From positions 1,550,001 to 1,614,000 of the forward strand of contig NC_017098.1 of NCBI RefSeq assembly GCF_000242595.2: a stretch of 64,000 nucleotides of DNA. The letters run 5' to 3'. Below the pieces are notes generated by a model. The model worked only from the letters and a program-made list of their open reading frames with translations. It searched no databases and was not told where the DNA came from. Source of the DNA: Spirochaeta africana DSM 8902. Lineage in GTDB: Bacteria; Spirochaetota; Spirochaetia; DSM-27196; DSM-8902. This document shows positions 47,909-58,899 of the stretch, in pieces. The translations under genes and the position numbers were made by a program. Within the stretch, counting starts at the first letter, position 1. Every line of letters begins with the position of its first letter.

Positions 47909-48754
47909 TTAATGGGCGTGTACCCACTCAAGAACTGCCTGGTTTATTTCTTCGGCGTTCCATACAAAGGCCAGGTGACTGCTCGCAATCCATACAAGGT
48001 GTTTCTTGCATGGAAGGCTGTCGTAATACTGTTGTAGATACCCCCGGCTGAAATAACGGTCTTCCGTGGATGCAATCACAAGGGTGGGGCAGCCAAGCTG
48101 ATTTCGCAGAGGGCTTGCGGAACCCAGGATAAGGAAACACAGACTGGCAATCAGCGAAAATGAAAGATCAAAGGTTCCGGGATATTGCTGCATAATGGTC
48201 TTGTACCACTGATCTTCCTCTGCAGCGTGTAGCCCATGGTATTCGGGCAGGCGGAAGGGGAGTCGGGTTCCGGGAGCGATACGCGCGATAAGTTGGATTA
48301 ACGGGTATGCAATTCTGAGCAGTCTGGTATCTGCCAGGGGAGAACTGTCACGATATATTGCCGCGCCGAATTGAGAGAAGCTGCGGATGTGCGGTGCGAT
48401 TCGGCTGTCCATTGCTAAAGCCTGCCCGATTATTCCCCCGGTTCCGGTACCCCCATACAGATGGATGTTAGCGCTGTAGTTTTCCTGTATGTACATGATC
48501 AGGCTCAGCATGCTCCCGGCCATGGTTTCGTAGCGAATCTCCCTGCTGCTGCCTTCGCTTCTGCCGATGCCCGGAAAATCGATGGCGAAAATATTGCAGC
48601 CGCCTTCGGTCAATCCACTCATGAAGCCCTGGCTCAGTTCGTGGGACACCGATACAACAGGCGTCATCAGGTAAATAATATTGGGAGCTGATGGATTGTC
48701 GATCGAAGCCTGTACATGAATCCGGTGGTCGTTGTGTGTCAGTGTGATATTCAT
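47909..48754 (-). CDS. Alpha/beta hydrolase-fold protein with Thr at the nucleophile position
   Basis: A 281-aa protein with an alpha/beta hydrolase layout: FAIDFPGIGRSEGSSREIRYETMAGSM (the strand-4 region), IHLYGGTGTGGIIGQALA at about 101-118, VIASTEDRYFSRGYL (acid loop) and SSHLAFVWNAEEI with a His. The nucleophile elbow reads G-G-T-G-T-G-G, so Ser is replaced by Thr or the site is inactive. Its start is 9 nt behind the AraC regulator gene on the same strand. A TAATAT box ends 6 nt before the ATG. Confidence 0.75.
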   Translation of the reverse strand: MNITLTHNDHRIHVQASIDNPSAPNIIYLMTPVVSVSHELSQGFMSGLTEGGCNIFAIDFPGIGRSEGSSREIRYETMAGSMLSLIMYIQENYSANIHLYGGTGTGGIIGQALAMDSRIAPHIRSFSQFGAAIYRDSSPLADTRLLRIAYPLIQLIARIAPGTRLPFRLPEYHGLHAAEEDQWYKTIMQQYPGTFDLSFSLIASLCFLILGSASPLRNQLGCPTLVIASTEDRYFSRGYLQQYYDSLPCKKHLVWIASSHLAFVWNAEEINQAVLEWVHAH

Positions 48755-48763
48755 ATCCGGATA

Positions 48764-49513
48764 TTACAGCGGAAGATCATAAAAGACTTGAATAAACTGA
48801 CTGTTTTTAAAGACCTCTTTGAGGTTCATCCCGGTGCTGTGGGTGAATGTGCGGGTAAAATGCGCAGAATCGGAAAAGCCGGCGGCAAGAGCTGCTTCGG
48901 TAAAACTTGCTGATCTGTTCAACAGGTGTATTCCCCGGATCAGTTTCTGCATCAACAGATAGTTCCGGTATGGCAGGCCGGTATATTGCTTGAATACTGC
49001 CAGAAAACGGCTCGTAGACAGGCATGCAATCTGCGCGGCCTCGGCTGCAGACAGCCCCCAACCGTCAGGTTCCTGCATGCGTAAGACAACCCGTTGAATG
49101 CGATCGTCTCTCGGTATTTTTGCGGATGCAGGGGCGCATCCGAGCTGCCGCACCAGTTGATCGCTGGCATCCAGTAACACGCTGCTGATGCTGCACTCGA
49201 CAAGCCCGGGCAATGAGAATCCGGGATCAGGAAGAGATATCCTGATGATCGGGCTGTCTGATGACTTGAGATAGTGCTTCCGGAGCAGAAAGCCGATCTC
49301 GGAGGATGGATCGAAAAGAAGGCTGAAATAGGGATCGCCACCCGATTCGAGCCCGTGCAAGCAGTTTGGTGCGATGATCTGTACGTCCAGTGATCCCGGT
49401 TCAGATCCAGTCGAGGTAAAAATCTGCGCAAATGCATGTCGATGTTCCGGATGTGGACGGGTTATCCCACACATCAAGATTCTGTCGGCACGGATGTATA
49501 ATGAGTGTTTCAT
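48764..49513 (-). CDS. AraC-family transcriptional regulator
   Basis: A 249-aa protein. The N-terminal 140 residues are a cupin-like sensory domain (HPEHRHAFAQIFTSTGSE). The C-terminal HTH pair is WGLSAAEAAQIACLSTSRFLAVFKQYTGLPYRNYLLMQKL and SFTEAALAAGFSDSAHFTRTFTHSTGMNLKEVF. It probably regulates the hydrolase-fold gene 9 nt downstream or the divergent SDR gene. TATACT ends 8 nt before the ATG. Confidence 0.92.
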   Translation of the reverse strand: MKHSLYIRADRILMCGITRPHPEHRHAFAQIFTSTGSEPGSLDVQIIAPNCLHGLESGGDPYFSLLFDPSSEIGFLLRKHYLKSSDSPIIRISLPDPGFSLPGLVECSISSVLLDASDQLVRQLGCAPASAKIPRDDRIQRVVLRMQEPDGWGLSAAEAAQIACLSTSRFLAVFKQYTGLPYRNYLLMQKLIRGIHLLNRSASFTEAALAAGFSDSAHFTRTFTHSTGMNLKEVFKNSQFIQVFYDLPL

Positions 49514-49560
49514 GCAGGATCAGTATAGTATTTTTCCAGTACTGATCGCCACGCATGTAG

Positions 49561-49566
49561 TATAAT
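49561..49566 (+). promoter_or_regulatory. -10 box directly before the SDR gene
   Basis: TATAAT ends 6 nt before the ATG at 49573, so transcription would start at the initiation codon. No convincing -35 hexamer at 17 nt is seen; activation by the divergent AraC regulator is possible. Confidence 0.4.
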
Positions 49567-49572
49567 CATCGC

Positions 49573-50397
49573 ATGATATCTCTTGAAGGAAGATGTACCG
49601 TGGTTACCGGAGGTGCGATGGGTGTCGGTCTGGCGGTGGTTCGCAGGCTGTTGCAGCATGGCTGCCGGGTGGCGATTTGGGACTACTCGGAGCAGGCACT
49701 GACAGATGTGCAGAGGGAGCTTGGGGAAAATCCGGCTCTGTTGTATATCAACTGTGATATTTCTGATCCAGCATCTGTTACATCTGCTGTTCAGGCAACC
49801 ATGGCAAGGTTTGGCAGTATTGATATTCTGGTGAATAACGCAGGCACCGTGGTTTCCGGATATCTTCAGGACACCGATATGGCTCGACAACAGCAGGTCA
49901 TTGATGTCAATTTTTCTGGCTTGGTTCATGCAACTACTCTGATACTTCCCAAGATGTACGCGCAGGATTTCGGGGTGATAGTCAACATTTCATCGGCAGC
50001 GGGGACACTGGGGGTTGCCCGTCAGTCGGTCTATTCCGCTGCAAAATGGGCAGTATGGGGTTTTACCGAATCACTGTGGCATGAGGTTCGCAACCAGAAT
50101 AAATCTGTGCATGTTGCAAGTGTGCACCCCGGCTATATTGCTACTGGGCTGTTTGCCGGAGCCAAAATTCGCGGGTTGGGCGGCGTAATTGTGCCATTGG
50201 TAAAAAATCACGATGTGATTGCAAAGGCGATAGTTGAACAGGCAATCCGCCACCGAAAAACTGTGGTGTACCGTCCGCGTTCGGTTCGACTGGCGGTTTT
50301 GCTGCGTGGTATTTTGCCAGACCGCTGGTTTTTCCGGTTGGTTCGCCTACTGGGGATCCACCGCAGCATGGAAGGCTTCACTGGCCAGCGCGCTTGA
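49573..50397 (+). CDS. Short-chain dehydrogenase/reductase
   Basis: A 274-aa classical SDR. TGGAMGVG (nucleotide-binding, about 12-19), NNAG (about 88-91), catalytic Ser in VNISSAAG (about 138), YSAAK (Tyr-x-x-x-Lys, about 155-159) and a HPGYIATGLF segment after the active site. The C-terminal extension has an amphipathic basic helix (RSVRLAVLLRGILPDRWFFRLVRLLG) that may associate with membrane. It diverges from the AraC regulator gene. Substrate unknown. Confidence 0.92.
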   Translation: MISLEGRCTVVTGGAMGVGLAVVRRLLQHGCRVAIWDYSEQALTDVQRELGENPALLYINCDISDPASVTSAVQATMARFGSIDILVNNAGTVVSGYLQDTDMARQQQVIDVNFSGLVHATTLILPKMYAQDFGVIVNISSAAGTLGVARQSVYSAAKWAVWGFTESLWHEVRNQNKSVHVASVHPGYIATGLFAGAKIRGLGGVIVPLVKNHDVIAKAIVEQAIRHRKTVVYRPRSVRLAVLLRGILPDRWFFRLVRLLGIHRSMEGFTGQRA

Positions 50398-50609
50398 ATT
50401 GACACAATAGCCGGGGTAAAAATGTGTGCTTCCTTGAAATGTAACCGTGGCACCGATACAGAAATGCAGCTTTCTGGGCTTTACCTTCACCGCAAAGAAA
50501 ATCTGCTGGACACAACGCGCCTACCAGGAATTCTTGCGAACCGTAAAGCATCTGACCCGCAGATCGTGGGGAGTGTCGATGCAGTACCGATTGTACCGAC
50601 TGAAGGTGT

Positions 50610-51950
50610 GATAACGTATAATATCTTGCGCAATTTCAAGTTTCGATAAAAAGAAAGTCCTCAATCTGACGATTGATTAAGTACGACCCAAACCAAGTCA
50701 GAAGGAGGACCCCATGGGTAAGATTATCGAGATAAACGAGCAGGAAGTCAAAGACCATTTGGGTAATTTTGTCAGGGAGACGGTGGAGGAAACCTTGAAC
50801 GCTATGCTGGAGGCAGAAGCAGAACAGCTGTGTAATGCGCAAAAACATGAGCGCAGCTCTGAGCGAACGGGGTATCGTGCCGGACATTATGATAGGAAAC
50901 TGCTAACGAAAGCAGGCGAAGTGAATCTGCAGGTTCCCAAGCTGAAGAAGGTGACGTTTGAAACTGCCATTATTGAACGGTATAAGCGACGCGAGATCTC
51001 TGTTGAGGAGGCAATGGTAGAGATGTACTTGGCTGGCGTTTCTGTCAGACGTGTCGAGGATATCACCGAAGCCCTTTGGGGTGCCAAGGTCTCACCAGGA
51101 ACTATCAGCAACCTCAATAAGAAAATCTACGAAGAAATTGAAAAATGGCGCAACCTGCCGTTGAAGCAGCGCTACACCTATGTCTACCTTGATGGCATCT
51201 GGATGAAACGATCCTGGGCTGGTGAAGTACGCAATGTATCCGTTCTGGTAGCCATAGGCGTTAATCAGGATGGTTTCAGGGAGATAATCGGGGTTGCCGA
51301 AGGCACCAAGGAAGACAAAGACAGCTGGCAGCGATTTCTCCGCTATTTGAAAGGCCGGGGACTGGAAACAGTGGAGATGTTTATCTCTGACAAGTCTCTG
51401 GGATTGGTAGAAGCGATACCAGAGTTTTTTCCTGATTCCCGGTGGCAGCGGTGCGTAGTGCATTTTTACCGCAATGTATTCAGCTTTGTTCCGCAGGGAA
51501 AAGTCAAAGCTGTTGCAACCATGTTGAAGGCCATTCATGCCCAGGAAAACCTGGAAGAGGCAGTCCGAAAGAAAGACCAGATTGCGAAGAAACTGATTGA
51601 AATGAAATTGTCCAAAGCAGCGGAGATCGTTCGAGAAGGTGCATTAGAAACCTTCTCGTATTATTATTTCCCGGTCGAACACTGGAAACGGATCAGGACC
51701 AATAACGGGCTTGAAAGAATCATGCGAGAAATCAGAAGGAGGACACGTGTAATCGGTTCGTTCCCTGATGGTGAGTCAGCACTGATGCTGGTTGCAGCAC
51801 GACTGCGCCACATCTCGAACTCAACATGGAGTGAACGGAAATATCTGAATATGGATCTGATGATCGAGTACGATCACGATCATCAGGCATCATAACAGCA
51901 GGGTCACAGATTGATGGACGCTGAATTTGCGCAAGATATTTGACACTACC
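50610..51950 (+). mobile_element. IS-A2, second copy of IS-A, 1341 bp
   Basis: Same length and ends as IS-A1 (GATAACG... and ...CACTACC), with its own 8-bp target duplication GAAGGTGT (50602-50609 and 51951-51958). Direct orientation relative to IS-A1, 29.4 kb away. Confidence 0.95.
50714..51895 (+). CDS. IS256-family transposase of IS-A2
   Basis: A 393-aa Mutator-type transposase whose predicted sequence equals that of the 21319-22500 copy, including the YLDGIWMK, FISDKSLG and LERIMREIRRR motifs. Its flanks are intact, so it is probably active. Confidence 0.97.
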   Translation: MGKIIEINEQEVKDHLGNFVRETVEETLNAMLEAEAEQLCNAQKHERSSERTGYRAGHYDRKLLTKAGEVNLQVPKLKKVTFETAIIERYKRREISVEEAMVEMYLAGVSVRRVEDITEALWGAKVSPGTISNLNKKIYEEIEKWRNLPLKQRYTYVYLDGIWMKRSWAGEVRNVSVLVAIGVNQDGFREIIGVAEGTKEDKDSWQRFLRYLKGRGLETVEMFISDKSLGLVEAIPEFFPDSRWQRCVVHFYRNVFSFVPQGKVKAVATMLKAIHAQENLEEAVRKKDQIAKKLIEMKLSKAAEIVREGALETFSYYYFPVEHWKRIRTNNGLERIMREIRRRTRVIGSFPDGESALMLVAARLRHISNSTWSERKYLNMDLMIEYDHDHQAS

Positions 51951-52080
51951 GAAGGTGTACATTCAGGGATGGATGAACTACTACGGGATATCCCGGTTCT
52001 ACCGTCCGGTACAAAGTATCGATGAATGGCTGCGGCGACGGATTCGCATGCGGGGTGGTGTGGGGGCCGGTGATTAGCAG

Positions 52081-52241
52081 TCACCGGCTACCCGATTTAG
52101 AACTCGCTTTCTTCCTACAAATAATCAATCCATGGCTACTACTGGCCAAATTTGTTCTAACTTCGGAAGTAGCAATATGAAAATTCACCAATGCTTCATA
52201 CTGTTCTTCATTCATTTTCTCAATCTCACTAGAGACAAGAT
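52081..52241 (-). pseudogene. C-terminal remnant of a cassette-like gene, cut by IS-B2
   Basis: About 53 codons of AT-rich minus-strand frame ending EKMNEEQYEALVNFHIATSE, then VRTNLASSSHGLIICRKKAS and a stop. The frame enters IS-B2 without a start of its own. Orientation and composition fit the cassette array to the right. No family recognised. Confidence 0.45.
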
Positions 52242-53590
52242 GATAGTGTCCTGAAACGTTCGCAATTTGAAAAGTAAAAGGAGCCATTGGATCCTCCGAA
52301 AGGTGTAGTAGCCAAACCATACCAAAGGAGAACACACAATGGCCCCACTCAAAGCTACCGCAGATTTCGAGAAACTTCTATCCCGTTTCATAGGTGAACA
52401 GGATCCTCTGCTTGAAATGCTCAAATGGATGACCGAACAGCTCATGCGCATTGAAGCTGAAAATAAAGCCGGTGCCGTGAAAGGCGAGCATGTCGCAAAT
52501 CGGACGACTCATTTCAGCGGTTCTCGTGTCAGAAGATTCGATACCCGTCTGGGCACCATGTACCTCGTCGTTCCAAAGCTGCGCAAGGGCGGGTACATTC
52601 CCTTCTTTGTAACCGAGAAGAAACGCTCGGAACAAGCACTCCTACAGGTAGTGCAGGAAGCATTTATCAACGGTGTTTCTACCCGTAAGATCGATCGCCT
52701 CGCCAAGGAGCTGGGGATTGAATCCATATCAGCCAGCCAGGTTTCTGAAATTAATAAGGGGCTGGATGAACAGGTTCAGCAATTTCGCAACCGAGAGCTG
52801 GATTCAGAATATCCAGTTATCTGGATTGATGCACTGTATGAAAAGATACGCCATGGCCAGAGAGTGCAGAATGAAGCAGTGATGGTGGTCTGTGGCCTTA
52901 ATTCTGCTGGAGAGCGCGAAATACTTGCTATAGAGCCCATGGAAACTGAATCAGAGGAAACATACGCCGACCTGTTTCAGCGCTTAAAACAGCGCGGTCT
53001 CAAGCATGTATGGCTTGTGGTATCAGATGCACACCAGGGATTGAAAAATGCAATCCGATCAGAATTTGTCGGCGCATGTTGGCAACGGTGTAAAGTGCAT
53101 TTCATGCGGAATGTCCTCGCCAAAGTACGCAGCAAACACAAGGAACAATTTGCAGAGCGATTAAAGCACATCTGGCTGCAGCCAGATCAAGCTACCGCGC
53201 GAAAATACGCCAAGCAGCTTATGGATGACAGGGAAGACTCTTGCTCTGATGCAGTCGAAATCCTGGATTCCGGACTTGATGACTCACTGCAGTTCTATGC
53301 CTTTGCAAAAATCGATGCACGGAAAATCTCCTCCACCAATATGCTGGAGCGATTGAACAAAGAAATCCGTCGACGATCAAAGGTGGTTGGCGTCTTTCCG
53401 TCCAGGGAGTCATACATCAGAATGGTCACCTGCTATCTGATAGAATACACCGAAGACTGGACAACCGGCAGATCGTACATTAAAAAGGAATCACTGGATG
53501 AACAGAAAGAATTCATCCTGAGAACGGTTGCGTAACCAGCCGGAGGCTGATGGCTCCAGGGTGAAATTGCAAACACGTTTGGACACTATC
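52242..53590 (+). mobile_element. IS-B2, second copy of IS-B, 1349 bp, without target duplication
   Basis: Ends GATAGTGTCC/GGACACTATC as in IS-B1. The flanking octamers differ (GACAAGAT on the left, CAAGAATA on the right), so one flank was probably lost by deletion or recombination after insertion. Confidence 0.92.
52339..53535 (+). CDS. IS256-family transposase of IS-B2
   Basis: A 398-aa Mutator-type transposase, full length with all three motifs (WIDALYEKIRHG, VSDAHQGLKNA, LERLNKEIRRR). It has three substitutions relative to the IS-B1 copy. The W-to-R change in the MDDWEDS region lies away from the catalytic triad. Confidence 0.97.
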   Translation: MAPLKATADFEKLLSRFIGEQDPLLEMLKWMTEQLMRIEAENKAGAVKGEHVANRTTHFSGSRVRRFDTRLGTMYLVVPKLRKGGYIPFFVTEKKRSEQALLQVVQEAFINGVSTRKIDRLAKELGIESISASQVSEINKGLDEQVQQFRNRELDSEYPVIWIDALYEKIRHGQRVQNEAVMVVCGLNSAGEREILAIEPMETESEETYADLFQRLKQRGLKHVWLVVSDAHQGLKNAIRSEFVGACWQRCKVHFMRNVLAKVRSKHKEQFAERLKHIWLQPDQATARKYAKQLMDDREDSCSDAVEILDSGLDDSLQFYAFAKIDARKISSTNMLERLNKEIRRRSKVVGVFPSRESYIRMVTCYLIEYTEDWTTGRSYIKKESLDEQKEFILRTVA

Positions 53591-53622
53591 CAAGAATACG
53601 GGTAAACAGATTGACACACTCC

Positions 53623-53977
53623 TTATCTATTGAAGAAATACATGCTGCTATGGTGGCACATGGGGTGCCGAATCAGAAGCCAAAGCCACATGTTCAAGTA
53701 GAGTAAGGCAGACAAGGCCATTTTTTGCTGCTCTATATTACGTTTGTCCCAGCGAAGGAACTGATAGCAATATGCGACTATGTTCCGGTCGAGATGAGCA
53801 ACGAATTGCGCGCCGAGAAATTCCAGAGTAACCAATGTCAAACATCGAGTACTTCTTCTGCTCATCATCGATTCCCAGAACTACAAAAGGATCATCCGCT
53901 TGTAACTGGAGAATTATCTTCTCGATGTAGTACTTGTCAAAGGGGAATGAAGGCACAAACAAAATATTCTTGTCCAT
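53623..53977 (-). pseudogene. Frameshifted cassette gene (fourth cassette), truncated near IS-B2
   Basis: A minus-strand frame beginning MDKNILFVPSFPFDKYYIEK runs through DPFVVLGIDDEQKKYSMFDIGYSG. The protein-like sequence then appears to continue in another frame as EFLGAQFVAHLDRNIVAYCYQFLR, then WDKRNIEQQKMALSALLYLN. One indel around 53830-53850 would join them. The gene lies just behind the third attC-like site. IS-B2 follows at 53590 with no target duplication, so the end may be missing. No family recognised. Confidence 0.45.
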
Positions 53978-54000
53978 AAAATTCTTCAAGTCTCTCAATC

Positions 54001-54094
54001 AAGCTAACGACTTACACAATATCCGACAAATAAGCGCCGCATCTTGGCTGTCTAGCGAAAAGCTCGCAGGATTGTTTGCTTCGGTGTGCTATGT
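54001..54094 (-). other. attC-like recombination site 3
   Basis: On the minus strand the site would run from ACATAGC, overlapping the stop codon of the preceding cassette gene, to the core GTTAGCT at 54002-54008. Inner ACAATCC and GGATATTGT can pair. The inverted repeats are less regular than in sites 1 and 2, so exact limits are uncertain. Confidence 0.5.
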
Positions 54095-54904
54095 GTTTTC
54101 TTTAAGACGCTGATTAACCCTTTTAACTAGAGCCTGATTAATTTCTGGAAGCTTTTTAGCTGGATTGCCCCATTTAATGCTGCGCTCTATTTCACCTAGC
54201 ATAGGATCAACTCTATCTCTTAGCGTGAAATTCTTAAGCCTAAAGCCTCTCTTTGAATAAAGCTGTATTTCACCATTCTCTACATAGCCCACTTTTAAGA
54301 GAAGTTCTGAGAGATAAGGAATTGCTTCTATGCATTTTTTCTTTAACTCATCTGTTGAGTAGTCAAAGCAGAATTGCTCATAAACTTTAGCCACTCTGAT
54401 GTTTATATGTGAATCAGAGCCGTATAGCTCTTTTGCTCTAGTTTCTGATTCTTGCAAGCTTTTTAACCGATTGCCGGGATATAGGAAAATGCTATATTTA
54501 CCACCACCTTCCCTTACAGCTCGAAATGTAATGTTTTCCGAAGCGTCTATAACTCTCCCATAATTCCATGATTTGAGCATGTTAAAGGCTTCTTTTGCGA
54601 CATCCTTATATTTGTATATGATTACGAAGCCTAACCCCTCCATGGTGGCAGGATCTTCCGTGATCCAGGAACTGCCTAGCACATGAGTATGCATACCTTC
54701 TGAAGGCATAGGCATTACGTGGAACACAACATACGTAAATACAAAACGATTCAAGAGAAAGGAGAGAGCAGTTAATGCAATACTAACTGGAACGGCAACC
54801 TCAAGCGGCAAAGTTACGAACGAAAGTGCGATACTTAGCAATGGCACTAAGACAAGTATTGTTCTTACTAAGGCTTTGAATTTACCGCTTACTTTGAACT
54901 TCAA
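54089..54904 (-). CDS. Cassette gene 3: hypothetical protein with two membrane segments (271 aa)
   Basis: Start set at TTG 54904: AGGAGG lies 6 nt upstream, just inside the cassette after attC site 2, while the longer frame runs through the attC. Two hydrophobic segments (LVRTILVLVPLLSIALSFV and VAVPVSIALTALSFLLNRFVF, about 13-55) are followed by an unrecognised soluble domain of about 210 residues. The gene lies between two attC sites with no promoter of its own visible, as usual for cassettes. Function unknown. Confidence 0.7.
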   Translation of the reverse strand: MKFKVSGKFKALVRTILVLVPLLSIALSFVTLPLEVAVPVSIALTALSFLLNRFVFTYVVFHVMPMPSEGMHTHVLGSSWITEDPATMEGLGFVIIYKYKDVAKEAFNMLKSWNYGRVIDASENITFRAVREGGGKYSIFLYPGNRLKSLQESETRAKELYGSDSHINIRVAKVYEQFCFDYSTDELKKKCIEAIPYLSELLLKVGYVENGEIQLYSKRGFRLKNFTLRDRVDPMLGEIERSIKWGNPAKKLPEINQALVKRVNQRLKENT

Positions 54905-54923
54905 ACATAGCCTCCTGGTGGAC

Positions 54924-54990
54924 ACATAACGCCAAAACGTACCGGCGCACATCAGTGCGACCGAGCGCGAAGTGATGCGAATTGTTAAGC
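54924..54990 (-). other. attC-like recombination site 2
   Basis: Minus strand: R'' core GCTTAAC (54984-54990, overlapping the stop codon of cassette gene 2) to R' core GTTATGT (54924-54930). An inner stem can form from GCATCA and TGATGTGC. GCTTAAC is the exact reverse complement of the GTTAAGC that opens the same cassette at attC site 1, as integron cassette logic requires. Confidence 0.75.
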
Positions 54991-55836
54991 CAGACCATGG
55001 AACTTCAGCTCCCAAAACTCCAATGGCAGTTTGCCTTCAATATATTCAATCTCATTGATCAATTTTAAGATGACATCCCTTTTCGATAGCTTTCCTGCAC
55101 ACCATAAAATGTAGCCAAGCTCATTGATCGAATCTGCAGATCTCGCTGTTGATAATACGAACTCATCCGTCACATTTCTTCCTGCAGCGATGCTGGCAGA
55201 AAGAAATGAAACTGGGCTCTCTTCTTCAATGAAGCTAACCCGACTGAAATCAAAGCACGCTACTTTCTTTAGAGCCTCGTTCTTGATATAGAATTTAATT
55301 TTATCGGAATCCCATATTTCTTTAAAAATATCAACAATTTTCTCGGTTGATCCCACCTTGACCAAGACGGATATAGAACCTTCATCACCAAACTTTTTCC
55401 AAGCTTTGATTAGTAAGCCCTCAACATCATCGTTGTAACATGCTTCTGATATGTGATAGGCCCGCTTTCTATCCGATATGCCTTCTGAAAATATCTGCCA
55501 CCGGAAAAAATCTCTTAGATCTTCTGGAGTGTAGTAGTCACGCAGTACTTTTATGGCTGTTCCAAGGGATATTCGGCGACGCCCCACAGACGAAAAGAAT
55601 TCGTTCAAAAGTTTTTCGAGAAACCAAGAGGGAATAACGCCATCTTTACTCTGAGCTCGATTATTAATATGCCGAAGAAGTTTGTTTCGAACATCTGTAT
55701 TGGATAGATACCTAATGAAATTTCTGCATAGATCTTCGAGATTCATTGCTAAATAGAATGCATACTCAATTCGATCTAGGCTCCTCGCTGAGCAAACATC
55801 AAGCTCTTTGTAAAAATGTTTGATTATGTCTTCCAT
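54985..55836 (-). CDS. Cassette gene 2: hypothetical helical protein (283 aa)
   Basis: An alpha-rich soluble protein (MEDIIKHFYKELDVCSARSL, later SSVGRRRISLGTAIKVLRDY). The middle has repeat-like helices (HISEACYNDDVEGLLIKAWKKFGDEG). No family recognised. It ends exactly in attC site 2 and begins 16 nt from attC site 1, so the gene fills its cassette with almost no spare sequence. No good Shine-Dalgarno is seen before the ATG. Confidence 0.7.
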   Translation of the reverse strand: MEDIIKHFYKELDVCSARSLDRIEYAFYLAMNLEDLCRNFIRYLSNTDVRNKLLRHINNRAQSKDGVIPSWFLEKLLNEFFSSVGRRRISLGTAIKVLRDYYTPEDLRDFFRWQIFSEGISDRKRAYHISEACYNDDVEGLLIKAWKKFGDEGSISVLVKVGSTEKIVDIFKEIWDSDKIKFYIKNEALKKVACFDFSRVSFIEEESPVSFLSASIAAGRNVTDEFVLSTARSADSINELGYILWCAGKLSKRDVILKLINEIEYIEGKLPLEFWELKFHGLA

Positions 55837-55851
55837 GCTTCACTCATTGGG

Positions 55852-55909
55852 GCTTAACGTCATGGCTGTGCGGAAGTGGTAAACTGTACGTACGAGCCAA
55901 TTGTTCAGC
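55852..55909 (-). other. attC-like recombination site 1
   Basis: 58 bp. Minus strand: R'' GCTGAAC (55903-55909), L'' TGGCTCG, L' CAGCCA and R' GTTAAGC (55852-55858). R'' and R' pair at six of seven positions. L'' pairs with L' with one extra unpaired base, the extrahelical base that sets strand polarity in true attC sites. It is short and regular, the best of the three. Confidence 0.82.
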
Positions 55910-55913
55910 CGCG

Positions 55914-56939
55914 CTACTTTCCGAACATCTTCAAGACCGCAATACTAGAAGCAATATTTAGCAGCAGTGCAACGCCGCCATTGAAGATGAACGAACGTAT
56001 CTTCGAGTTGTTCTTTTTTCGATACTTCTCAATCGAGTTGGCATCACCATTTGTCAGTTGAAACGGGGTAAAGATACCATATTCGTTGATGGCTGAGTAG
56101 CATTGGTCAGCTAGATACTTGCTTAATCTAATTCCTAAAATAACCCCAAGTCCGCTGATTAACAGCCACTGGAGTCCCGCGACAAAAGACGCAGGGCTTA
56201 ATTGAGTTTCCGCAGTCGGTACAAATACCGGTGCAAGAAAAAAGGCTGTAGCGGTTAGCATGATCGGAATCGAGTAGTTCACAGCCCTGGCTATCAGTTT
56301 GTCGTACTTATCCAACTCTGAAAACCAAGAACCAGGAATTGTGGGTTCCGGCAACGATTCGTTCCACTTGGCCACAACGTCAATCAATTCATCCGCAAGC
56401 CGGTGAGATATAAAGTCGACACGGGCAACGCACATGCCAAGACGACTTTTCATATCGTCATCGTCAAGGTCTTGTGACATCAGCATATGAAGCACATCGC
56501 GGGGGTTCGGTGCCTTCGATAGTTTCACAACAAGCGTGTGTCTTTGGGCTACTCTATAATCGTCCAAATTAATCATGAAGTCCCAGCGCAGGGTGATTTC
56601 TTGAGTAACATTTGCTATCTTCCAGTTGAAGTCTTGGAACTCAGCCCATGTACCGAACTGGATTATTTCCTTTTTCGCAAACTTAAGAGTAACGCTGGTA
56701 ATGGTTTGATCAATCTGATGAAGTTTTAGCTTCTCGACAACCAGCTCATTCAGGTAGTCGACATCCTCTGGGCCAATACAGATCTTTCGACTGAAAAGCT
56801 TAGTCTTTGAATCAGGGCGACCAGCGAAGAGGTAAAACATTGCCTTGAATGCTTCTTTAGGAACGGCGGCGACGACCTGCTCCGGCCGTTTCATGAGTCC
56901 GGTTTTATCGCGCTTATCACTGTTGAGTTCTTTGCTCAT
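55914..56939 (-). CDS. Cassette gene 1: hypothetical membrane protein (341 aa)
   Basis: Start at ATG 56939 with AGGAGG 7 nt upstream. The N-terminal 215 residues are soluble and unrecognised. Three hydrophobic segments follow (PIMLTATAFFLAPVFVP, GLQWLLISGLGVILGIR, FIFNGGVALLLNIASSIAVL). The gene ends 4 nt before attC site 1. It overlaps the stop of the small upstream frame (TGATG). As the cassette nearest the integrase it should be the best expressed. Function unknown; it could be an exclusion or defence protein. Confidence 0.75.
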   Translation of the reverse strand: MSKELNSDKRDKTGLMKRPEQVVAAVPKEAFKAMFYLFAGRPDSKTKLFSRKICIGPEDVDYLNELVVEKLKLHQIDQTITSVTLKFAKKEIIQFGTWAEFQDFNWKIANVTQEITLRWDFMINLDDYRVAQRHTLVVKLSKAPNPRDVLHMLMSQDLDDDDMKSRLGMCVARVDFISHRLADELIDVVAKWNESLPEPTIPGSWFSELDKYDKLIARAVNYSIPIMLTATAFFLAPVFVPTAETQLSPASFVAGLQWLLISGLGVILGIRLSKYLADQCYSAINEYGIFTPFQLTNGDANSIEKYRKKNNSKIRSFIFNGGVALLLNIASSIAVLKMFGK

Positions 56940-57103
56940 CAATACTCCTCCTTGTGGCGATCGCTGTACACTGGAGCAAACCGAAGCGTGTTATCCGTCA
57001 TTTGTAGTGGCCCTGATAGAAACTTATGCAGGCTTGAAACCCCTAAATCAATCCTATCCTTGACCTGACGAACAAAACTGCCCTCGATAATATCTACAGC
57101 CAA
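56939..57103 (-). CDS. Small ORF (54 aa) translationally coupled to cassette gene 1
   Basis: A TTG start at 57103 with AGGA 8 nt before it. The sequence LAVDIIEGSFVRQVKDRIDL, then SSLHKFLSGPLQMTDNTLRF and a charged end, looks protein-like. The stop TGA overlaps the ATG of the 341-aa gene, and that gene's Shine-Dalgarno lies inside this frame. It could be a small partner (for example an antitoxin) or a remnant. Confidence 0.4.
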   Translation of the reverse strand: MAVDIIEGSFVRQVKDRIDLGVSSLHKFLSGPLQMTDNTLRFAPVYSDRHKEEY

Positions 57104-57363
57104 TGCTGGTATCCTAAATCTGCCTTATTGTTAATCTCGGAAACACATAACATCTTCTCTCTCCGGTTTCCCCCGTTCAATGCATATACCCGCTACGAAC
57201 AATAACCGGTTCCCTGATATCTGTTCCCAGTCAGGCAAAATCCGCCCAATGGCCACATTTGCTCTTGATACCGCAGTATATGCAGTTTTCTCCTGAACGC
57301 AAATTCTCGTTCGTTCTGATGCCCGATGCATATTAACACAGTAGTAATCAGTAGGAGAGCAGG
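57104..57363. other. Integron platform region: likely attI and cassette promoter
   Basis: Lies between the divergent integrase gene and the first cassette. On the minus strand GTTCAGG (57292-57298) matches 6 of 7 positions of GTTCAGC, the partner expected for R'' (GCTGAAC) of cassette 1, so the first cassette may begin there, 66 nt from the integrase start. Another candidate core GTTATGT is at 57145-57151. An open frame of about 55 codons (ending EREDVMCFRD) also crosses the region. The cassette promoter should be here but no strong hexamers stand out. Confidence 0.5.
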
Positions 57364-58641
57364 ATGAAAACAGTCGAGAACCTTGCGGATTTTATGACCT
57401 ATCTGACTACCAACCTGGGCATGGATGCAGGCAGATCCGAATGGAGCTGCTATTGGGTAGAGCGATTCTTGCAGAACAACGATTTGCCGGCACCAGGGCA
57501 ACGTAAAGAGTCATTGCGCACTTTTCTGCACGCAGTGGCACAAACCAAGCCGGATCATGTGGTGCAGTATGCGAATGAGGCACTGCAGCGCTGGTTTTTA
57601 TTCCTCGACGTTTGCGGCGGGAGCACCAACAACGCAGGAGATGACGATTGGCAGCGCTGGCGCGAGTACACCAGTGGCCTTACCCAGCGGGTGCGTGAGG
57701 TGCTTCGGCTGAAACACCGTGCCTACCGTACCGAGCAAACCTATCTGGGTTGGCTGGCACGCTTTTTCTCGTTTCTGGAAGCACATCGCGGGTTTCCTGG
57801 CAAAGATCAGATTGATGTCGATGACCTGCGAGCCTGGCTCAGTTGGCTTGCTGCCGAAAAACAGGTGGCCGCCGGCACCCAGAATCAGGCGCTGAACGCC
57901 TTGCTGCCGTTGTACCGGTCGGTACTCGGGCTGGAGATCCAAGGGCTTGATACCACGCTGCGTGCCAAGCCAACCCGACGGTTGCCGGTCGTGTTCACCC
58001 GCCCGGAGATTGCTGCGGTATTCTCCCGGCTGCCGCTGCCATATCGCCTGATGGTGCAGCTGATCTATGGTGGCGGCCTGCGGCTGGAAGAATGCCTGAG
58101 CCTTCGTGTCAAGGATCTGGATTTCTCCAATGCATTTCTGACCGTTCGCTGCGGCAAGGGAGACAAGGATCGAATCACCCTGTTTCCCGAGATACTGCAC
58201 GAGCCTGTGCGTACCCACCTGCAGGAGCAGCGGATCGTCTGGGAGCGTGATCGCCGTAACGCGGATCCCGGGGTCTCGGTACCGCACGGGCTGCGCCGGA
58301 AATATCCGGGGCTTTCCAGGGAATGGGGATGGTTCTGGTTATTTCCAGCCTCCGGTTTCTGTAACGATCCACGCAGTGGAGAGCGTGTGCGATGGCACAT
58401 CCATCCCTCCGTGCTGCAAAAGCAGGTCAAGATTGCGCTCCGTGCTGCAGGGATTGCCAAACACGCTTCGGTACACACCTTTCGGCACAGTTTTGCGACT
58501 CACCTGGTCGAGGATGGGTATGACATTCGAATCGTTCAGGATCTGTTTGGGCACGCCAATCTGCAAACTACCATGATCTATACCCACGTCGCGGCCAGAA
58601 ACAAGCTGGGGGTACGCAGCCCGTTGCAGGGCTTGTTGTGA
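57364..58641 (+). CDS. intI: Integron integrase with N-terminal extension (425 aa)
   Basis: A tyrosine recombinase with the diagnostic IntI features. Active site: Arg in YGGGLRLEECLSLRVKDLDF (about 237), HTFRHSFATHL (His-x-x-Arg, about 376), GHANLQTTMIYTHV (His and Tyr nucleophile, about 399-409). The integron-specific insert VPHGLRRKYPGLSREWGWFWLFPA...DPRSG.RVRWHIHP is present at about 305-345. The usual IntI start (VREVLRLKHRAYRTEQTYLGWLARFF) comes only at about residue 111. The protein therefore carries about 100 extra N-terminal residues, helical, ending ALQRWFLFLDVCG. AGGAG precedes the ATG. It diverges from the cassette array, the standard layout. Confidence 0.93.
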   Translation: MKTVENLADFMTYLTTNLGMDAGRSEWSCYWVERFLQNNDLPAPGQRKESLRTFLHAVAQTKPDHVVQYANEALQRWFLFLDVCGGSTNNAGDDDWQRWREYTSGLTQRVREVLRLKHRAYRTEQTYLGWLARFFSFLEAHRGFPGKDQIDVDDLRAWLSWLAAEKQVAAGTQNQALNALLPLYRSVLGLEIQGLDTTLRAKPTRRLPVVFTRPEIAAVFSRLPLPYRLMVQLIYGGGLRLEECLSLRVKDLDFSNAFLTVRCGKGDKDRITLFPEILHEPVRTHLQEQRIVWERDRRNADPGVSVPHGLRRKYPGLSREWGWFWLFPASGFCNDPRSGERVRWHIHPSVLQKQVKIALRAAGIAKHASVHTFRHSFATHLVEDGYDIRIVQDLFGHANLQTTMIYTHVAARNKLGVRSPLQGLL

Positions 58642-58899
58642 CTGGTGCCTGTGCTCAATCCGGATGCAGTGATGATGTGGGGTGGTGCGGGATACACCGG
58701 GGTCCGGGCACGCGGGGTGGTGGTGCCGGCTGCAGCGGGATTGAGCAGAGGCATCTGCCCACCCGGCGAACCTGGCGTGGGGGTTTGCGGCTGCATTGTA
58801 CCGTGACAGTCTAACATGATATTGGAGAAATGCAACCGGAAATTGATGGTTGTTTTGGAGATAAAAAGCTGTGCTGTGAGTCAGCTTGCGGGTGTCTCA
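58642..58899. other. Intergenic region
   Basis: About 260 bp between convergent genes (integrase and EamA transporter). GC-rich, GGGGTG/CACCCC-rich sequence with partial self-complementarity. No gene or clear terminator recognised. Confidence 0.35.

Follow-up and report, generated by a model that had tools for sequence, protein, structure and literature searches.

The window, a 64,000-nucleotide stretch of the Spirochaeta africana DSM 8902 chromosome, carries intI (57364..58641, + strand), which encodes a 425-aa integron integrase with the IntI-specific insert. A first-pass annotation of this DNA had called an IntI-type recombinase here, and both a profile search and a tree agree with the call. 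The protein scored 366.2 bits in a profile search against the integron-integrase model TIGR02249 (cut-off 265) and is the sole match above cut-off in the 3,285,855-bp single-contig genome. When 105 catalytic domains, archaeal IntIs not among them, were placed in a tree, both Xer proteins of the genome fell outside all IntIs with support of 100/100, so the recombinase belongs with IntI and not with XerC or XerD. The tyrosine-recombinase residues R240, H371, R374, H397 and Y406 are intact and lie in invariant or nearly invariant columns. VchIntIA (2A3V) is the best solved relative, with residues 109-422 aligning at E 1.3e-61 and a structural Z of 25.9, and the core shares 44% identity with IntI1. 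A second IntI-like match in the genome (2576119-2576918) was rejected because it is a frameshifted, Xer-like recombinase in which the IntI insert is absent. A consensus scan for a cassette promoter, Pc, performed no better than on shuffled sequence.

IntI1 and VchIntIA can be aligned to the window's IntI only from about residue 108 onward. The first 88 residues (57364..57627, + strand) form an extra domain which, when modelled alone, folds into four helices with a pLDDT of 90.5. In a structural comparison it came closest to the core-binding domains of 4a8e, 2a3v, 5hxy and 1a0p (Z 10.5-11.4); helical bundles may reach such values by chance, yet all four are the same kind of domain. The match to the core-binding domain of 2a3v covers 80 residues with an rmsd of 1.9. 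Profile comparison linked the extra domain to IntI's own core-binding domain (95%, E 2.6e-8) and not to the catalytic domain (0.1%), and of 20 relatives, 13 gave a match to Phage_int_SAM_4 with E no higher than 1 (best 9.5e-6). The structural matches, the profile comparison and the Phage_int_SAM_4 matches show that IntI has two core-binding (SAM-like) domains in tandem, an arrangement termed type A. Type A IntIs are also present in Deltaproteobacteria, Nitrospirota, Omnitrophota and other groups. The IntI of a close relative (L047:14750-16387, - strand) has a long glycine-rich insert inside its core-binding domain.

A single motif is common to the upstream regions of related intI genes, which are otherwise unalignable. 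Its window copy, GGGGAAACCGGAGAGAGAAGATG^TTAT, adjoins intI at 57147..57174 on the minus strand and marks the attI site, with the crossover between G 57151 and TT. Within the order, eight genomes have the motif next to intI. Its core was found in 7 of 46 genomes of the order, once in each and always beside intI, and was absent from the reversed control.

To the left of attI lies a minus-strand array of cassettes, for which three attC-like sites had been proposed. As the Rfam gathering scan of the window gave no match, a covariance model (R1) was built from 20 aligned attCs of other integrons, none from the window, collected with a structural scanner. The hand-made scanner was by itself too permissive, with background scores of up to 25.7 against 26.1 for the first site, and when the array region was shuffled 400 times, 7 of the shuffled sequences gave a structural score as high as that of the first site; folding energies of the candidates were only weakly informative. 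With R1, attC1 (55852..55909, - strand) was found well (19.9 bits, E 0.0015 in 5 kb); it has canonical R''/L''/L'/R' boxes and a bulged base in L''. attC2 (54924..54990, - strand) is degenerate, with L boxes that pair poorly, and was found weakly (11.4 bits, E 0.12 in 5 kb). It gains independent support from its R'' sequence, GCTTAAC, which is exactly complementary to the first letters of cassette 2 (G^TTAAGC, the end of attC1), a match expected of a cassette with a circular past. The third proposed site (54001..54094, - strand) was not matched by R1. Thus one site of the three stands, the second stands weakly and the third is unproven, and the first-pass count of at least three attC-bounded cassettes is reduced to two supported attCs.

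The first cassette gene (55914..56942, - strand) encodes a protein of 342 aa with two membrane stretches predicted by eye and starts 422 nt from intI, in accord with the earlier observation of minus-strand genes within 425 nt of the integrase start. It is followed by cassette 2 (54985..55836, - strand; 283 aa) and cassette 3 (54089..54979, - strand), the latter probably starting with a TTG that follows AGGAGG, at 54979 or close to it. These genes end as described, at 55914 (4 nt before attC1), at 54985 (inside attC2) and at 54089 (inside the third proposed site). A fourth gene (53591..53998, - strand) is a frameshifted remnant, in two overlapping frames (53738-53998 and 53623-53868), that is cut by an insertion sequence. 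The low GC content of the cassettes was also borne out: it is 41-46% within 54000-56999 but 52-66% from 57000 onward and 48-52% within 48000-52999. None of the cassette proteins had a convincing match in Pfam, NCBIfam, PHROGs or PADLOC, in accord with their first description as unrecognized; cassette 3 matched SduA of PADLOC weakly (E 0.0036), and the cassette 2 protein matched nothing convincing in the PDB. Plasmid searches gave no match for the genes of cassettes 1 and 2 and one distant match for that of cassette 3. At attI, cassette 1 starts with TTATGT, which does not fit the R'' of attC1 (GCTGAAC); because of this mismatch, cassette 1 may be a fusion or damaged.

The far end of the array is occupied by an IS256-family element (52242..53590, + strand). 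Eleven near-complete copies of this element are present in the genome, six of them with perfect 8-bp target duplications. The 8-mers flanking the window copy differ (GACAAGAT and CAAGAATA), indicating that this end of the array was rearranged. The window copy (genome position 1602242) and the copies at 1537735 and 2574380 are without target duplication and point to rearrangements there. Beyond the element, a fragment that by eye resembles the C-terminus of a group II intron maturase lies at 50444-50609 and 51950-52101, its two halves held apart by another IS256-type element, the second in the window (50609-51950).

The layout is the standard divergent one that had been called: the attC array lies upstream of intI and on the opposite strand. 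The orientation of attCs around other integron loci was scored with R1, loci with no match not being counted and some single matches being weak (18-22 bits). On this basis, the attCs of all 13 type A loci besides the window lie upstream of intI and on the strand opposite to it, whereas those of all 17 loci of a second class, type B, lie downstream of intI and on its own strand. Where neither N-terminal domain was recognized, 23 loci are standard and 11 reversed (three of the latter are spirochaete loci with a truncated or unrecognized N-terminus). Conflicting orientations were seen at no locus of any class. The 28 reversed loci all lie to the same side of one branch (100/98), implying a single change of layout, and the window lies to the other side, outside the Treponema-type reversed lineage. 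A single clade of spirochaete IntIs is rejected (p = 8e-84), and a single clade of all type A IntIs is not (p 0.06). The IntI of another genome (G236) groups with that of the window. The standard layout in a spirochaete is shared throughout an integrase lineage that is separate from the reversed one.

Type B IntIs are those of other spirochaetes, putatively including a Treponemataceae group, and have a different N-terminal domain with a motif like RxWxPxxxxWxIP and no match in Pfam. This domain marks reversed IntIs of the Treponema type (L039, L040 and L227-L260; for example L227:9294-10601, - strand) and also occurs in two IntIs of Elusimicrobia (L085, L120). The frameshifted Xer-like recombinase of this genome (2576055-2577167; L051:8056-9168, - strand) bears the type B N-terminal motif and adjoins an IS256-family copy without target duplication.

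A second attI is present elsewhere in the chromosome (genome 1178116-1178144, - strand). Its 25-mer (1178116-1178140) occurs exactly twice in the 3.29 Mb genome, the copies being 429 kb apart, and not in the control. No integrase was detected near it by tblastn over 48 kb (1150000-1197999), nor any integrase remnant beside it. A cassette that starts with TTATGG lies exactly at the crossover, and its gene (1177064-1177981) is followed by an R'' of CCATAAC, the exact complement of that start. Other exact pairs of cassette start and R'' in this array are GTTAGAC/GTCTAAC, GTTAAAC/GTTTAAC (twice) and GTTAGCC/GGCTAAC. Its attCs are near-identical and well paired, scoring 33.2, 29.8, 24.6, 16.3 and 12.6 bits with R1, although one is interrupted by another IS256-type copy. 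As exact-complement sites here go down to 16.3 and 12.6 bits, the 11.4 bits of attC2 in the window are near the range of such sites. Overall, the second array (genome 1161500-1178150) is longer and better preserved than the window's, and attCs bounding cassettes are clear in it.

The second array is rich in defence genes. It holds both genes of the anti-phage system DRT3 (Drt3a, E 3.5e-122; Drt3b, E 4e-203), PDC-S54 (E 7.7e-138) and duplicated BrnT/BrnA-like toxin-antitoxin cassettes, with a SIR2-like gene at its far end. The same maturase-like fragment as in the window (genome 1162110-1162697) lies at its far end. An exchange between the two array loci mediated by IS256 elements is unproven, as no crossed target duplications were found among the flanks read.

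The sequence that follows intI in the window (58690..58730, + strand) recurs beside the second attI (genome 1178283-1178327). The local alignment score is 39, against a maximum of 30 in shuffles (0 of 300 reach it) and 27 in controls (0 of 194 windows). Because the flank of the second attI matches post-intI sequence, a deleted intI is suggested there, and the site is read as a duplicated or moved platform that has lost its integrase gene.

Judged by its sequence, the window's integron is a genuine one, with an IntI-family recombinase, an attI and attC-bounded cassettes. The first-pass reading of a chromosomal integron with a divergent integrase is upheld by the identity of IntI, by attC1 and by the conserved attI; additions to it are the attI itself, the second core-binding domain of IntI and the other attI array of the genome. 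The best explanation, with a probability of roughly 0.85, is a sedentary chromosomal integron of the standard-layout lineage, with a second, integrase-less attI array derived from the same platform and an action in trans that we infer. IntI, with its two core-binding domains, would recognize folded attCs and its own attI at 57151, inserting cassettes there and excising them from the leftward minus-strand array. The extra core-binding domain would help IntI to keep its grip on the long attI motif or on the complex formed during recombination. The platform would have been duplicated or moved, one copy then losing intI, and the surviving IntI could act on both attIs in trans. Counting against this explanation are the weakness of attC2, the lack of support for a third attC, the mismatched start of cassette 1 and the shortness of an array that is cut by an insertion sequence.

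A rival reading is that the locus is no integron at all but a Xer-like recombinase beside unrelated genes and chance palindromes; in its favour, one of the three proposed attCs is weak and another is absent. The tree and the attI contradict this, as do the TIGR02249 score and attC1, and it is highly improbable. That the integron is decaying, with intI intact, the window array a frozen relict with worn attCs, and neither array now mobile, is a more serious proposition, though still an unlikely one. It would account for the state of attC2, the unsupported third site, the frameshifted fourth gene, the IS256 copy without target duplication and the interrupted attC of the second array. It sits poorly with an IntI and an attI that are intact and kept across genera, and with the near-identical, well-paired attCs and duplicated BrnT/BrnA-like cassettes of the second array.

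How the two arrays are related is more evenly balanced. A two-locus integron, in which a single tandem-domain IntI would serve both attIs and cassettes would be traded between the sites in trans, is a tentative proposal to which we give somewhat less than even odds. Alternatively, the second array may be a leftover used by nothing: its own intI would have been deleted, the window's IntI would be inactive there, and the two would be independent loci of one origin. This has close to an even chance. The flank matching post-intI sequence, which suggests a deleted intI, is consistent with such a leftover, as is the failure to find an integrase remnant beside the second attI. However, the second attI motif is intact, with a core identical to the window's, and, as mobile integrons show, an attI can be used without an adjacent intI provided that another place in the genome supplies the integrase.

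Spirochaetes have two or more separate integron lineages, between which integrase architecture and layout differ jointly, and therefore a single gain in Treponema can describe just one of these lineages. The tandem core-binding IntI and its conserved attI offer a clean test case for attI recognition, while the integrase-less second attI makes trans-acting chromosomal integrons directly testable. If the two-locus proposal is true, the one IntI also acts in trans on a larger array, with anti-phage and toxin-antitoxin cassettes.

In 2013, spirochaete integrons were known only in Treponema, and all were reversed (PMC3607928). The reversed arrangement that the first-pass annotation gave for Treponema agrees with this. 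Later, a brine from an alkaline lake and a hot spring were reported as the sources of two spirochaete IntIs termed 'atypical', which differ from those of reversed integrons and were placed as sister to archaeal IntIs (Ghaly et al. 2022, PMC9668308). Like the IntI described here, these lie outside the reversed lineage, and the present genome is probably the source of one of them; its standard-type IntI is thus probably already on record. The standard layout, which the first-pass annotation held to be of interest in a spirochaete, is general to its lineage, of which two members had been reported. The main text of PMC9668308 names no organism and describes for these IntIs neither an additional domain nor an attI motif, nor a further attI site. 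Tandem core-binding domains, this attI motif and an attI array lacking an integrase go unmentioned in the literature searched (subscription papers lay outside it).

Compared with Treponema-type integrons (PMC3607928), the window shares a spirochaete host, attC-bounded cassettes and an N-terminally extended IntI, but differs in its opposite layout, its different N-terminal domain and its separate IntI lineage. With standard sedentary chromosomal integrons of the VchIntIA type, and their mobile cousin, the class 1 integron of IntI1, it has in common the IntI core, a divergent intI, an attI and attC-bounded cassettes. It departs from the VchIntIA type in the extra N-terminal core-binding domain, its own attI motif, the second attI without intI and an array that is short and damaged. 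The second array, having at least two attCs and no nearby integrase, resembles a CALIN (cluster of attC sites lacking an integrase); it differs from a CALIN in also having an attI, at which it begins with a cassette exactly at the crossover.
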